A DNA stretch of 64,000 bases from Burkholderiales bacterium (lineage in GTDB: Bacteria; Pseudomonadota; Gammaproteobacteria; Burkholderiales; Burkholderiaceae_C), in contig CANFPU010000002.1 of assembly GCA_947448955.1 (NCBI GenBank), positions 25,349 through 89,348 on the forward strand. The letters are read 5' to 3'. Positions 58,895 to 62,734 of this stretch are shown here, in pieces (positions within the stretch are counted from its first letter, which is position 1; the number at the start of each line of letters is the position of its first letter). Made by a program: the position numbers and the translations under genes. The notes under the pieces are model-generated. The model was not told the origin of the DNA, did no database searches, and worked only from the letters and a program-made list of their open reading frames with translations.

Positions 58895-59800
58895 ATGCAA
58901 GCAGCTGATGCTGCCGCCGGCGGCCAGCATCACCCGACGGGCACACTGTACGTGCTGGCCACGCCCATCGGCAACCTCGCCGACCTCACGCTGCGGGCCG
59001 TGCATCTGCTGGGCTTGGTCGACGCGCTGGCCTGCGAGGACACCCGCGTCTCGGGGCAGTTGCTGCGCCACCTCGGGTTGGACAAGCCGCTGCTCGCGCT
59101 GCACCAGCACAACGAAGCAGGCGCGGCACAAAGCGTGATCGCACGCTTGGCGCAAGGCCAGCGCGTGGCCTATGTCAGCGACGCCGGTACGCCAGCGATC
59201 TCGGACCCAGGCGCTTTGCTGGTGGCTGCGGTCGTGGCCGCCGGTCACCGGGTGATGCCGATCCCAGGCGTCAGCAGCGCCGTGACCGCCCTCAGCGTGG
59301 CCGGCGACACGCTGGCCCAAGGCTTTGTGTTCGTGGGCTTCCTGCCCGGCAAGGGCCAGGACCGGCGCAATGCGCTGCAGGCAGCCGCAGCGGCACCAAG
59401 CTGCCAGGTGCTGTTCGAAGCGCCGCACCGCATCGAATCGCTGGTCGCTGGATTGGCCGAGGCCGCGCCCGAGCGACGCATCACGCTGTGCCGCGAATTG
59501 ACCAAGCAGTTCGAGACCATCGTCACGCACCGTGCCTGCGAACTGCCCGCCTGGCTGGCGGCAGACGCCAACCGTGGCCGCGGCGAGTTCGTGCTGGTGC
59601 TGCATGCGCTGCCGTCGCTAGCCGCGGCAACGGGCGCGGCCGGCCTGCCGGCCGAGGCCGAGCGCCTGCTGTTGCCATTGCTGCGCGAGTTGCCGCTCAA
59701 ACAGGCGGTCGCACTGGCAGCCGAGCTGAGCGGTGCGCCGCGAAACGCCTTGTACGAGCGTGCGCTGGCGCTGCGGCGCGACGCTGACGGCGCGCCGTGA
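58895..59800 (+). CDS. rsmI: 16S rRNA (cytidine-2'-O-)-methyltransferase
   Basis: GTLYVLATPIGNLADLTLRAVHLLGLVDALACEDTRVSGQLL; VSDAGTPAISDPGALLV; IPGVSSAVTALSVAG. Confidence 0.95.
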   Translation: MQAADAAAGGQHHPTGTLYVLATPIGNLADLTLRAVHLLGLVDALACEDTRVSGQLLRHLGLDKPLLALHQHNEAGAAQSVIARLAQGQRVAYVSDAGTPAISDPGALLVAAVVAAGHRVMPIPGVSSAVTALSVAGDTLAQGFVFVGFLPGKGQDRRNALQAAAAAPSCQVLFEAPHRIESLVAGLAEAAPERRITLCRELTKQFETIVTHRACELPAWLAADANRGRGEFVLVLHALPSLAAATGAAGLPAEAERLLLPLLRELPLKQAVALAAELSGAPRNALYERALALRRDADGAP

Positions 59801-59827
59801 TGTGACGTGACGTGACATGACGTGACG
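59798..59827. repeat. 5-bp tandem repeat (tgacg-like), 6 copies, overlapping the rsmI stop codon
   Basis: tgatg-tgacg-tgacg-tgaca-tgacg-tgacg. Confidence 0.85.
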
Positions 59828-59929
59828 TAAGTGCTGACCACAGCCTCGACTGACCCCCGAGTGGACGGGCTGCGGCGCAACGTGAAACCTGGCGCTGCAA
59901 AGCCGGCGTGCGACTCCTACAATCCGCCG

Positions 59930-61393
59930 ATGATCTCGCGCGAACCCACCCTCGAACGCCTAGCCATCGCCCAGCAACTGCTGATCGACCCCTTCGGTCT
60001 GGACGAGGCCAAGCTCGCTGCGGCGCTCGGCGTGATCGGCGAACACCGCATCGACGATGCCGACCTGTACTTCCAGATCACCCGCCACGAGGGCTGGAGC
60101 CTGGAAGAAGGCATTGTCAAGAGCGGCAGCTTTTCGATCGACCAAGGCGTTGGCGTTCGAGCGGTGGCCGGCGAGAAGACAGCTTTTGCCTATTCTGACG
60201 ACATCTCCGAGGCCGCGCTGCTCGACGCAGCGCGCACGGTTCGCAGCATTGCTGCGGCGGGCCAGAACCGGCGCGTCAAGCTCGCGCGCCAGCCCAGGAT
60301 CGCGACCAGCCGCGCGCTCTACCTGCCCACCGACCCGATCGGCACGCTGGACAGCACCCAGAAGGTCGCGCTGCTCGAGAAGATCGAAAAAATGGCGCGC
60401 GCCCGCGACCCGCGCGTCGTGCAGGTGATGGCGGGTGTGGCCGCCGAGTACGACGTCGTGATGGTCGCTCGTGCCGACGGCACCCGTGCCGCCGACGTGC
60501 GGCCACTGGTCCGACTGTCGATCACCGTGATCGCTGAATCCAACGGCCGACGGGAGGTCGGCTCGGGCGGCGGCGGTGGTCGCTTCGGCCTGGGTTACTT
60601 CCAGGACGAGCAGCTCACGCTCTATGTCGACCAAGCGGTCAACGCCGCGCTGACCAACCTCGATTCGCGCCCGGCGCCGGCCGGCGTGATGACCGTCGTG
60701 CTGGGCCCGGGCTGGCCCGGCGTGCTGCTGCACGAAGCCATTGGCCACGGCCTGGAAGGCGATTTCAACCGCAAGGGCTCGTCGGCATTCGCCGGGAGAA
60801 TCGGCCAGCGCGTGGCGGCCAAGGGCGTAACGGTGCTCGACGACGGCACTTTGCCCGACCGCCGCGGCTCGCTCAATGTCGACGACGAAGGCTGCGCGTC
60901 GCAGCGCAACGTGTTGATCGAAGACGGCATCCTCAAGGGCTACATTCAGGACTCGATGAATGCCAGGCTGATGGGCGTCAAGCCCACTGGGAACGGTCGG
61001 CGCGAGAGCTATGCCCATGTGCCGATGCCGCGAATGACCAACACCTACATGCTCAACGGCGACAAGACCAAGGACGAAATCGTCGGGTCGATCAAACGCG
61101 GGCTGTACGCGACCAACTTCGGCGGCGGCCAGGTCGACATCACCAGCGGCAAGTTCGTGTTCTCTGCCAGCGAGGCGTATTGGGTCGAGAACGGCAAGAT
61201 CCTCTACCCGGTCAAGGGCGCGACGATCATCGGCAATGGCCCGGATGCACTGACCCGCGTGAAGATGATCGGCAACGATCTGGCGCTCGATTCGGGCGTC
61301 GGCGTTTGCGGCAAGGAAGGCCAGAGCGTGCCGGTCGGTGTCGGCCAGCCGACGCTGCGAATTGACGGGCTGACCGTCGGCGGTACGGCCTGA
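59930..61393 (+). CDS. tldD: Metalloprotease TldD
   Basis: GPGWPGVLLHEAIGHGLEGDFNRKGSSAFAGRIGQRVA (HExxxH), LPDRRGSLNVDDEG, GGGQVDITSGKFVFSASEAYWVENGKI. Confidence 0.96.
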   Translation: MISREPTLERLAIAQQLLIDPFGLDEAKLAAALGVIGEHRIDDADLYFQITRHEGWSLEEGIVKSGSFSIDQGVGVRAVAGEKTAFAYSDDISEAALLDAARTVRSIAAAGQNRRVKLARQPRIATSRALYLPTDPIGTLDSTQKVALLEKIEKMARARDPRVVQVMAGVAAEYDVVMVARADGTRAADVRPLVRLSITVIAESNGRREVGSGGGGGRFGLGYFQDEQLTLYVDQAVNAALTNLDSRPAPAGVMTVVLGPGWPGVLLHEAIGHGLEGDFNRKGSSAFAGRIGQRVAAKGVTVLDDGTLPDRRGSLNVDDEGCASQRNVLIEDGILKGYIQDSMNARLMGVKPTGNGRRESYAHVPMPRMTNTYMLNGDKTKDEIVGSIKRGLYATNFGGGQVDITSGKFVFSASEAYWVENGKILYPVKGATIIGNGPDALTRVKMIGNDLALDSGVGVCGKEGQSVPVGVGQPTLRIDGLTVGGTA

Positions 61394-61441
61394 TCTCGCC
61401 GCCTCACCGAGCGCCGTCCTGTCCGTGCTACATTTCATCTT

Positions 61442-61513
61442 ATGCGCACCGCACGATTTTCGTACTTTTGGTTCTCGCCCCTGACCGGCGGCTTGAGAGG
61501 CGATCGCGCGTAA
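61442..61513 (+). CDS. Putative aromatic-rich leader peptide (23 aa: MRTARFSYFWFSPLTGGLRGDRA) of a DAHP synthase attenuator
   Basis: ATG 61442 to TAA 61511-61513; Phe-Ser-Tyr-Phe-Trp-Phe run; precedes an intrinsic terminator located upstream of the DAHP synthase gene. No strong Shine-Dalgarno seen. Confidence 0.65.
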   Translation: MRTARFSYFWFSPLTGGLRGDRA

Positions 61514-61544
61514 ACCAAGCGACCCGAACAAACCAACCGCCGGT
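61484..61544 (+). promoter_or_regulatory. Candidate antiterminator pairing (61484-61491 with 61537-61544), mutually exclusive with the terminator
   Basis: accggcgg at 61484-61491 is the exact reverse complement of ccgccggt at 61537-61544, which holds the 5' arm of the terminator. Confidence 0.6.
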
Positions 61545-61564
61545 ACACCCGGCGGTTTTTTTTT
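61535..61564 (+). terminator. Intrinsic (attenuator-type) terminator in the DAHP synthase leader
   Basis: aaccgccgg-tacac-ccggcggtt 9-bp perfect stem followed by a T9 run, 34 nt upstream of the ATG at 61598. Confidence 0.9.
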
Positions 61565-61597
61565 GCACCGACGATCTCACCGCAACAGGAACCCATC

Positions 61598-62734
61598 ATG
61601 GCGCCGAAGTCCCACCACCACCCCGAGACCAGCGAACCGATGCACAGCTATTCGCTGAGCGAGAAGACCAGTGAAACCGACGACCTGCGCATCGAGGAAA
61701 TCACCCCATTGCCCCCTCCCGAGCATCTGATCCGTTTCTTTCCAATTGCCGGCACGCCGGTCGAAAAACTCGTCGGCGACACCCGGCGCAGCGTTCGCCG
61801 CATCCTCGACAGCAAGGACGACCGACTGCTGGTGGTGATCGGCCCTTGCTCAATCCATGACCCAGCCGCCGCACTGGATTACGCTCGCCAGCTCAAAGCC
61901 CAACGAACGAAGTACGCGAACACGCTGGAGATCGTGATGCGGGTCTATTTCGAAAAACCCCGCACCACCGTCGGTTGGAAAGGCTTGATCAACGATCCCT
62001 ACCTCGACGAAAGCTACCGCATTCACGAGGGCCTGCGCATCGCTCGCCAGTTGCTCGTTGACATCAACCGGCTGGGTATGCCGGCGGGCAGCGAGTTCCT
62101 CGACGTGATCAGCCCGCAGTACATCGGCGACTTGATCAGCTGGGGCGCGATCGGCGCACGGACCACCGAGTCCCAGGTACACCGCGAACTCGCATCAGGC
62201 CTGTCTGCGCCCATCGGCTTCAAGAACGGTACTGATGGCAACCTCAAGATCGCGACCGATGCGATCCAGGCCGCATCACGGCCGCACCATTTCCTGTCTG
62301 TCCACAAGAACGGTCAGGTCGCGATCGTCCAGACCAAGGGCAACAAAGACTGCCACGTGATCCTGCGTGGCGGCAAGGCACCGAACTACGACGCCGCCAG
62401 CGTCGCCGCCGCTTGCCAGGAATTGGTGGCTGCCAAGCTGGCGCCGCAGTTGATGGTCGACTGCAGCCACGCCAATAGCAACAAACAACACCAGCGTCAG
62501 ATCGAGGTGGCCCGAGACATCGGCACGCAGTTGGCCGCCGGCCAACGCCACATCATCGGCGTGATGGTCGAGAGCCACCTGCTGGCCGGCGCGCAGAAAT
62601 TCAGCGCCGGCAAGGACGATCCCGCCAAGCTGACCTATGGCCAGAGCATCACCGACGCCTGCATCGGCTGGGACGATTCACTGACCGTGCTGCAGGTCTT
62701 GAGCGATGCGGTCGCGGCGCGACGCAAGCTCTGA
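61598..62734 (+). CDS. aroG: 3-deoxy-7-phosphoheptulonate (DAHP) synthase, class I, AroG/AroF type
   Basis: LLVVIGPCSIHDPAAALDYARQLK; MRVYFEKPRTTVGWKGLINDPYLDESYRIHEGLRIARQLL; GFKNGTDGNLKIATDAIQAAS; VDCSHANSNK. Confidence 0.95.
   Translation: MAPKSHHHPETSEPMHSYSLSEKTSETDDLRIEEITPLPPPEHLIRFFPIAGTPVEKLVGDTRRSVRRILDSKDDRLLVVIGPCSIHDPAAALDYARQLKAQRTKYANTLEIVMRVYFEKPRTTVGWKGLINDPYLDESYRIHEGLRIARQLLVDINRLGMPAGSEFLDVISPQYIGDLISWGAIGARTTESQVHRELASGLSAPIGFKNGTDGNLKIATDAIQAASRPHHFLSVHKNGQVAIVQTKGNKDCHVILRGGKAPNYDAASVAAACQELVAAKLAPQLMVDCSHANSNKQHQRQIEVARDIGTQLAAGQRHIIGVMVESHLLAGAQKFSAGKDDPAKLTYGQSITDACIGWDDSLTVLQVLSDAVAARRKL

Follow-up and report, generated by a model that had tools for sequence, protein, structure and literature searches.

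What does the hairpin between tldD and aroG do: does it simply end tldD transcription, or does it belong to a switch that controls aroG? The locus lies in a 64,000-nt stretch of a Burkholderiales bacterium genome (hereafter the window). There, aroG (61598..62734, + strand) encodes a 378-aa AroG-type class I alpha DAHP synthase (Pfam PF00793, 7.6e-93; NCBIfam TIGR00034), the gene that would be regulated; the solved chains closest to its product are AroG-type DAHP synthases, some of them Phe-sensitive. The upstream neighbour, tldD (59930..61393, + strand; NCBIfam PRK10735, TldD equivalog), is outside the element described here. Between tldD and the gene upstream of it, at 59800-59830, the window also carries a short near-tandem run of TGACG repeats (gatgtgacgtgacgtgacatgacgtgacg).

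Parts of the aroG leader and their predicted folding

All parts of the element lie on the + strand between the two genes. Separated from the end of tldD (61393) by 48 nt is a leader peptide ORF of 23 codons (MRTARFSYFWFSPLTGGLRGDRA-TAA, 61442..61513), which is not preceded by a Shine-Dalgarno sequence and contains the putative control codons F6, Y8, F9, W10 and F11. An extended −10 promoter-like element, TGC-TACATT (61426..61434), stands 7 nt 5' of the leader ATG. Within the ORF, segment 2 (ACCGGCGG, 61484..61491, core GGCGG), the 5' strand of the candidate antiterminator, is the exact 8-bp complement of segment 3 (CCGCCGGT, 61537..61544), which serves both as the antiterminator 3' strand and as part of the terminator 5' arm. 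Segments 3 and 4 form an intrinsic terminator (AACCGCCGG-TACAC-CCGGCGGTT with its T run, 61535..61566), with a perfect 9-bp stem and a 5-nt loop at 61535-61557 and a T9 run at 61556-61564. A preliminary description had placed the leader, the hairpin, the T9 run and the 8-nt complement on the window, and re-reading of the sequence found its coordinates correct to the base.

The locus contains an ORF with aromatic codons, an intrinsic terminator ahead of aroG, and an antiterminator that lies past the control codons and uses the terminator's 5' arm. We consider it very probable, judging from the sequence comparisons below, that the element is a ribosome-mediated transcription attenuator of aroG.

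RNAfold predicted three states for the window leader. The free, nascent leader sequesters segment 2 in a 1:2 (protector) hairpin (TTCTCGCCCC...GGCGGCTTGAGAG, 61472..61499), the 5' arm of which overlaps the F11-S12-P13 codons. When segment 1 is covered and the transcript has only just extended past segment 3, the 2:3 antiterminator is formed (−22.9 kcal/mol for 61482-61546), and the complete leader folds into the 3:4 terminator. Since equilibrium folding of the full transcript prefers the terminator, the switch must be kinetic, as is common to all such attenuators.

The 1:2 hairpin is the weakest part of the proposed switch, and the folding models favour it modestly. Across 81 loci, GGCGG pairs with upstream sequence at a mean probability of 0.77, compared with 0.68 when the upstream sequence was shuffled. 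Pairs in the TCTC/GAGA part of the hairpin are conserved, with covariation not above shuffles, and on the same grounds we rejected the idea that the TTCTC/GAGAG helix is conserved independently. For Burkholderia the prediction is different, with segment 2 paired to a CCGCC near the start codon. Leaders of Burkholderia, Caballeronia and Paraburkholderia (L073-L087) start ATGTCCGCCAAG, and their CCGCC near the start is the predicted partner of segment 2. In one of them (L079) the codons differ (SFAS), yet a CGCCAGC complementary to GCTGGCG is retained, so that the predicted 1:2 pairing is built differently.

Conservation of the leader, its pairing and its place before aroG

We examined 110 aroG-like loci, drawn from relatives and named GTDB genomes, and called a leader wherever a terminator followed a short ORF in which 7 codons included at least 4 aromatic residues. 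This combination was found at 84 of the 110 loci but in none of the 300 dinucleotide shuffles made of these regions, and is far beyond chance. Among the 26 loci scored as lacking the element, three (L008, L021, L064) are contig ends and two (L041, L082) have leaders outside the terminator window; the element is apparently truly absent, within this set, from Polynucleobacter (e.g. L061-L063), two Cupriavidus copies, Rhodocyclales and some gammaproteobacteria.

The leader peptides themselves vary, from RFFFAYFWFSPLTGG in close relatives and FYFYFWFSVPGGREA in Comamonadaceae to MSAKFYFYFFWHLKPLADREG in Burkholderia and Caballeronia and FFFTTYFYFSDSNLEAVE in an Oxalobacteraceae record. The tails that follow the aromatic run differ by family (TGG, PGG, LAD/LADREG, AVE). 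The leader GGCGG lies in frame 0 in 48 loci, in frame 2 in 34 and in frame 1 in 2. GGCGG and CCGCC thus stay across loci that differ in frame, in peptide tail and in the gene upstream. Because the frames and the peptide tails differ among loci, the leader GGCGG is selected as RNA and not for the peptide. At two loci of family f44 (L156, G315:C33; L157, G344:C2), GGCGG and the terminator stand before aroG and most aromatic codons of the leader have been lost (MHASPRPLRFCRPRSTAVGRQ); perhaps attenuation has decayed there or been re-targeted.

The pairing was examined in an alignment of 57 leaders, in which changes on both sides of a pair were tested against 500 shuffles. The terminator CCGCC (5' arm) and its GGCGG were invariant in all 57, and the leader GGCGG was found in 55, the remaining two differing by one substitution each. 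In the antiterminator, 93.7% of cells were paired, with 13 both-side changes in the flanking pairs; for the terminator the values were 96.1% and 17, and in neither case did any of the 500 shuffles reach the observed number. These shuffles ignore relatedness; slid controls, which correct for it, gave far lower values. Leaders also pair better with their own terminators than with swapped ones (−17.2 compared with −16.2 kcal/mol; Wilcoxon p 0.0005). In Burkholderia and its relatives, a 9-bp antiterminator (CGCTGGCGG with CCGCCAGCG) reaches past the part of segment 3 that is used by the terminator stem. The leader and the pairing near aroG are therefore kept together across dozens of genera, with both-side changes beyond all 500 shuffles, and the attenuator reading of the preliminary description is borne out by the joint conservation of leader, antiterminator segment and terminator while frame and peptide change.

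A different explanation would be that the hairpin is a plain tldD terminator, that the aromatic ORF is incidental and that the aroG promoter lies after the hairpin, an outcome that the preliminary description had named as fatal to its proposal. The short distance to tldD in the window speaks for it, and among the 83 loci with enough upstream sequence tldD lies within about 220 nt in 37 (further away in 14). However, 32 of these 83 loci have no tldD upstream, a conserved promoter-like motif sits 5' of the leader, and the ORF with its aromatic run is conserved together with aroG, as is the GGCGG/CCGCC pairing. We therefore rejected the hairpin as a terminator of tldD only, and hold this explanation to be extremely improbable.

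Attenuation of aroG is also in keeping with the genomic distribution of the element. A covariance model found a single full-length copy in the genome of the window, upstream of aroG (93 bits, E 1.7e-21), and no copy at the second DAHP synthase gene of the same genome in a genome-wide search. Across the order, 104 of 400 genomes have a strong full-length match (E about 1e-8 or better); weak matches spanning only model positions about 100-136 resemble plain terminators and were left uncounted. All 29 strong matches that were fetched adjoin aroG, as do 13 of 19 further, mostly weaker loci. A class-wide search returned two members of another family, f63, which we suspect to be Xanthomonadaceae. 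Full-length matches occur in 26 of 100 genomes of this family, and in the 11 loci read, leaders such as MNANRARFYFWYYGFPMPLAEEGLRSP lie directly 5' of aroG. As far as these genomes tell, the element travels with aroG.

A few loci have similar leaders before other genes. At two of them (L145, G141:C20:48230-48373, − strand; L146, G277:C1:1711110-1711258, + strand), an aromatic leader (MVTFSVVYNVYFYWYRSSGGAKGC and MITFSAVFNAYFYWYRSS..., respectively) with a terminator precedes a gene of about 200 aa (MNEVSDARQIARES...), uncharacterised and with no Pfam or NCBIfam match. This is possibly a second aromatic attenuator, on a gene of unknown function; three further genomes (G216, G307, G392) gave similar covariance-model scores. 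What looks like a Leu attenuator, made up of a leucine-run leader (MELFIAALLSLLLLSRLKDRAGSRARVKATQR) and a terminator, precedes an apparent LeuA-coding region at another locus (L147, G332:C1:274402-274547, − strand).

Predicted transcript start, candidate signal amino acids and the proposed switch

A motif of the form TGnTAnAnT (mostly TGCTACATT) was found 6-9 nt 5' of the leader ATG in 56 of the 84 loci, at a spacing of 6 nt (10 loci), 7 nt (21), 8 nt (24) or 9 nt (1). A consensus scan of 61300-61620 gave no two-hexamer sigma-70 promoter, so the candidate promoter in the window is an extended −10 element without a good −35. Leaders of E. coli carry a Shine-Dalgarno sequence; in our set, SD-like 4-mers occur 5' of none of the 84 leaders, compared with 60 of the 84 aroG starts. 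The position of the motif together with the lack of SD-like 4-mers suggests that in this lineage the leader mRNA probably lacks a 5' UTR, with a predicted start at the ATG or within 1-2 nt of it, which would give a leaderless leader RNA of ~125 nt. In Burkholderia and Oxalobacteraceae relatives, TATAAA or TATAGT mostly stands about 25-47 nt 5' of the leader ATG, again with no SD, and for these a short 5' UTR is predicted.

As to the amino acids sensed, the aromatic run is mostly 5-9 codons long, usually with Tyr and Trp, and the leaders contain on average 4.4 Phe, 1.7 Tyr and 0.9 Trp. Phe, Tyr and Trp codons occur together in 65 of the 84 leaders, Phe and Tyr in 17, Phe and Trp in 1 and Phe only in 1. 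The suggestion that one leader senses all three residues is the weaker part of the preliminary description: Phe codons occur in every leader and Tyr codons in nearly all, but 18 of the 84 leaders have no Trp codon. To judge by codon content, the main signal is most likely Phe, with Tyr next; sensing of Trp is possible but would not be general.

From the observed parts, with their conservation and covariation, we infer where transcription starts, how the ribosome stalls and what follows for aroG. Transcription would start at or beside the leader ATG, and ribosomes would load on the leaderless end. When charged Phe- and Tyr-tRNA (and Trp-tRNA, where Trp codons are present) are plentiful, the ribosome would pass the aromatic codons and cover segment 2; with segment 2 covered, or held in the 1:2 hairpin, the 3:4 terminator would form and transcription would end before aroG. 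A ribosome stalled at F6-F11 would instead cover segment 1 and leave segment 2 free. With W10 in its A site, a ribosome of standard footprint would reach to about 61481 and leave free segment 2, which begins at 61484. Free segment 2 would pair with segment 3 and block the terminator, and aroG would be transcribed. The pathway would thus probably be switched on when ribosomes run short of aromatic amino acids.

The geometry of the leaders bears on this scheme. Segment 2 begins 5-17 nt 3' of the last aromatic codon in the loci scanned, and the leader stop codon lies 4 to 31 nt past segment 2. Since the stop varies in position, a ribosome terminating there cannot mask segment 2 in the same way in every species. 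In some leaders the stop falls well short of, or well beyond, the place required for such masking, which would fit a model in which the leader regulates aroG through coupled translation initiation, Rho or mRNA stability and the hairpin is secondary. Against this model, every one of the 57 aligned loci has a strong intrinsic terminator with a T run, the antiterminator is aimed exactly at the terminator's 5' arm, and at 60 of the 84 loci aroG is preceded by an SD-like motif of its own; we regard this model as very improbable.

Known attenuators and meaning for Burkholderiales

Attenuation at a DAHP synthase gene has a precedent. In Corynebacterium glutamicum, aroR-aroF is described as a ribosome-mediated attenuator with a Phe-Tyr-Phe leader (Neshat et al. 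2014, as cited in PMC11802643; also PMC4046766) that responds to Phe limitation and not to Tyr (PMC11802643). Mechanism and target are the same as proposed here, a likeness drawn from the papers; C. glutamicum, however, is an actinobacterium, and its aromatic run is shorter than that of the Burkholderiales leaders. The E. coli pheA/pheL and pheST leaders (Rfam Phe_leader) are likewise Phe-rich, with mutually exclusive antiterminator and terminator (PMC11802643), but they control different genes, and the aroG element has neither an Rfam match nor a Shine-Dalgarno sequence. In enterobacteria, the same enzymatic step responds to aromatic amino acids through TyrR and TrpR, which control aroF, aroG and aroH (PMC5343134). 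These are protein regulators acting at DNA, with regulons described in gammaproteobacteria (PMC5343134), whereas the aroG element is an RNA leader.

The predicted leaderless start is shared with trpL of Sinorhizobium meliloti (rnTrpL/peTrpL), the RNA of which begins with the leader ORF ATG and is therefore a leaderless mini-mRNA (PMC7298713), although trpL senses Trp and controls trpE(G). By analogy with rnTrpL/peTrpL, the attenuator might work as proposed and, in addition, its terminated leader RNA or peptide might act in trans. The common architecture and the predicted short leaderless RNA would agree with such a role, but the peptide tail is family-specific (PGG, LADREG, AVE), which points to constraint on the aromatic run only, and we find the additional role unlikely. 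We likewise find unlikely a wider scenario, in which an ancestral leaderless multi-aromatic switch at the entry to the shikimate pathway, shared by Burkholderiales and one other family, would have a terminated RNA or a peptide that also acts in trans on other aromatic genes.

No Rfam family covers the element: 15 related loci gave no match at the gathering threshold, the best matches in the window were below it, and those to sroD and BcKCsr7, likewise below gathering, were rejected as terminator look-alikes. A published list of putative attenuators from the Merino database, restricted to tyrA operons, omits the aroG element (PMC1173090). We found no description of the Burkholderiales aroG leader in the open literature searched; an earlier account in the subscription literature is possible. 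The proposed mechanism is that of textbook attenuation, already known at a C. glutamicum DAHP synthase, and we hold with high confidence that the Burkholderiales element is real.

For many Burkholderiales, in which the TyrR/TrpR scheme is undescribed, these results give a concrete and testable account of how the first step in making aromatic amino acids is controlled, and they suggest that an unrelated lineage has arrived at the same solution as Corynebacterium. They also predict that leaderless small ORFs are numerous and likely to be absent from genome annotations. For the engineering of aromatic products in Burkholderiales, deleting the leader should free aroG from this control.
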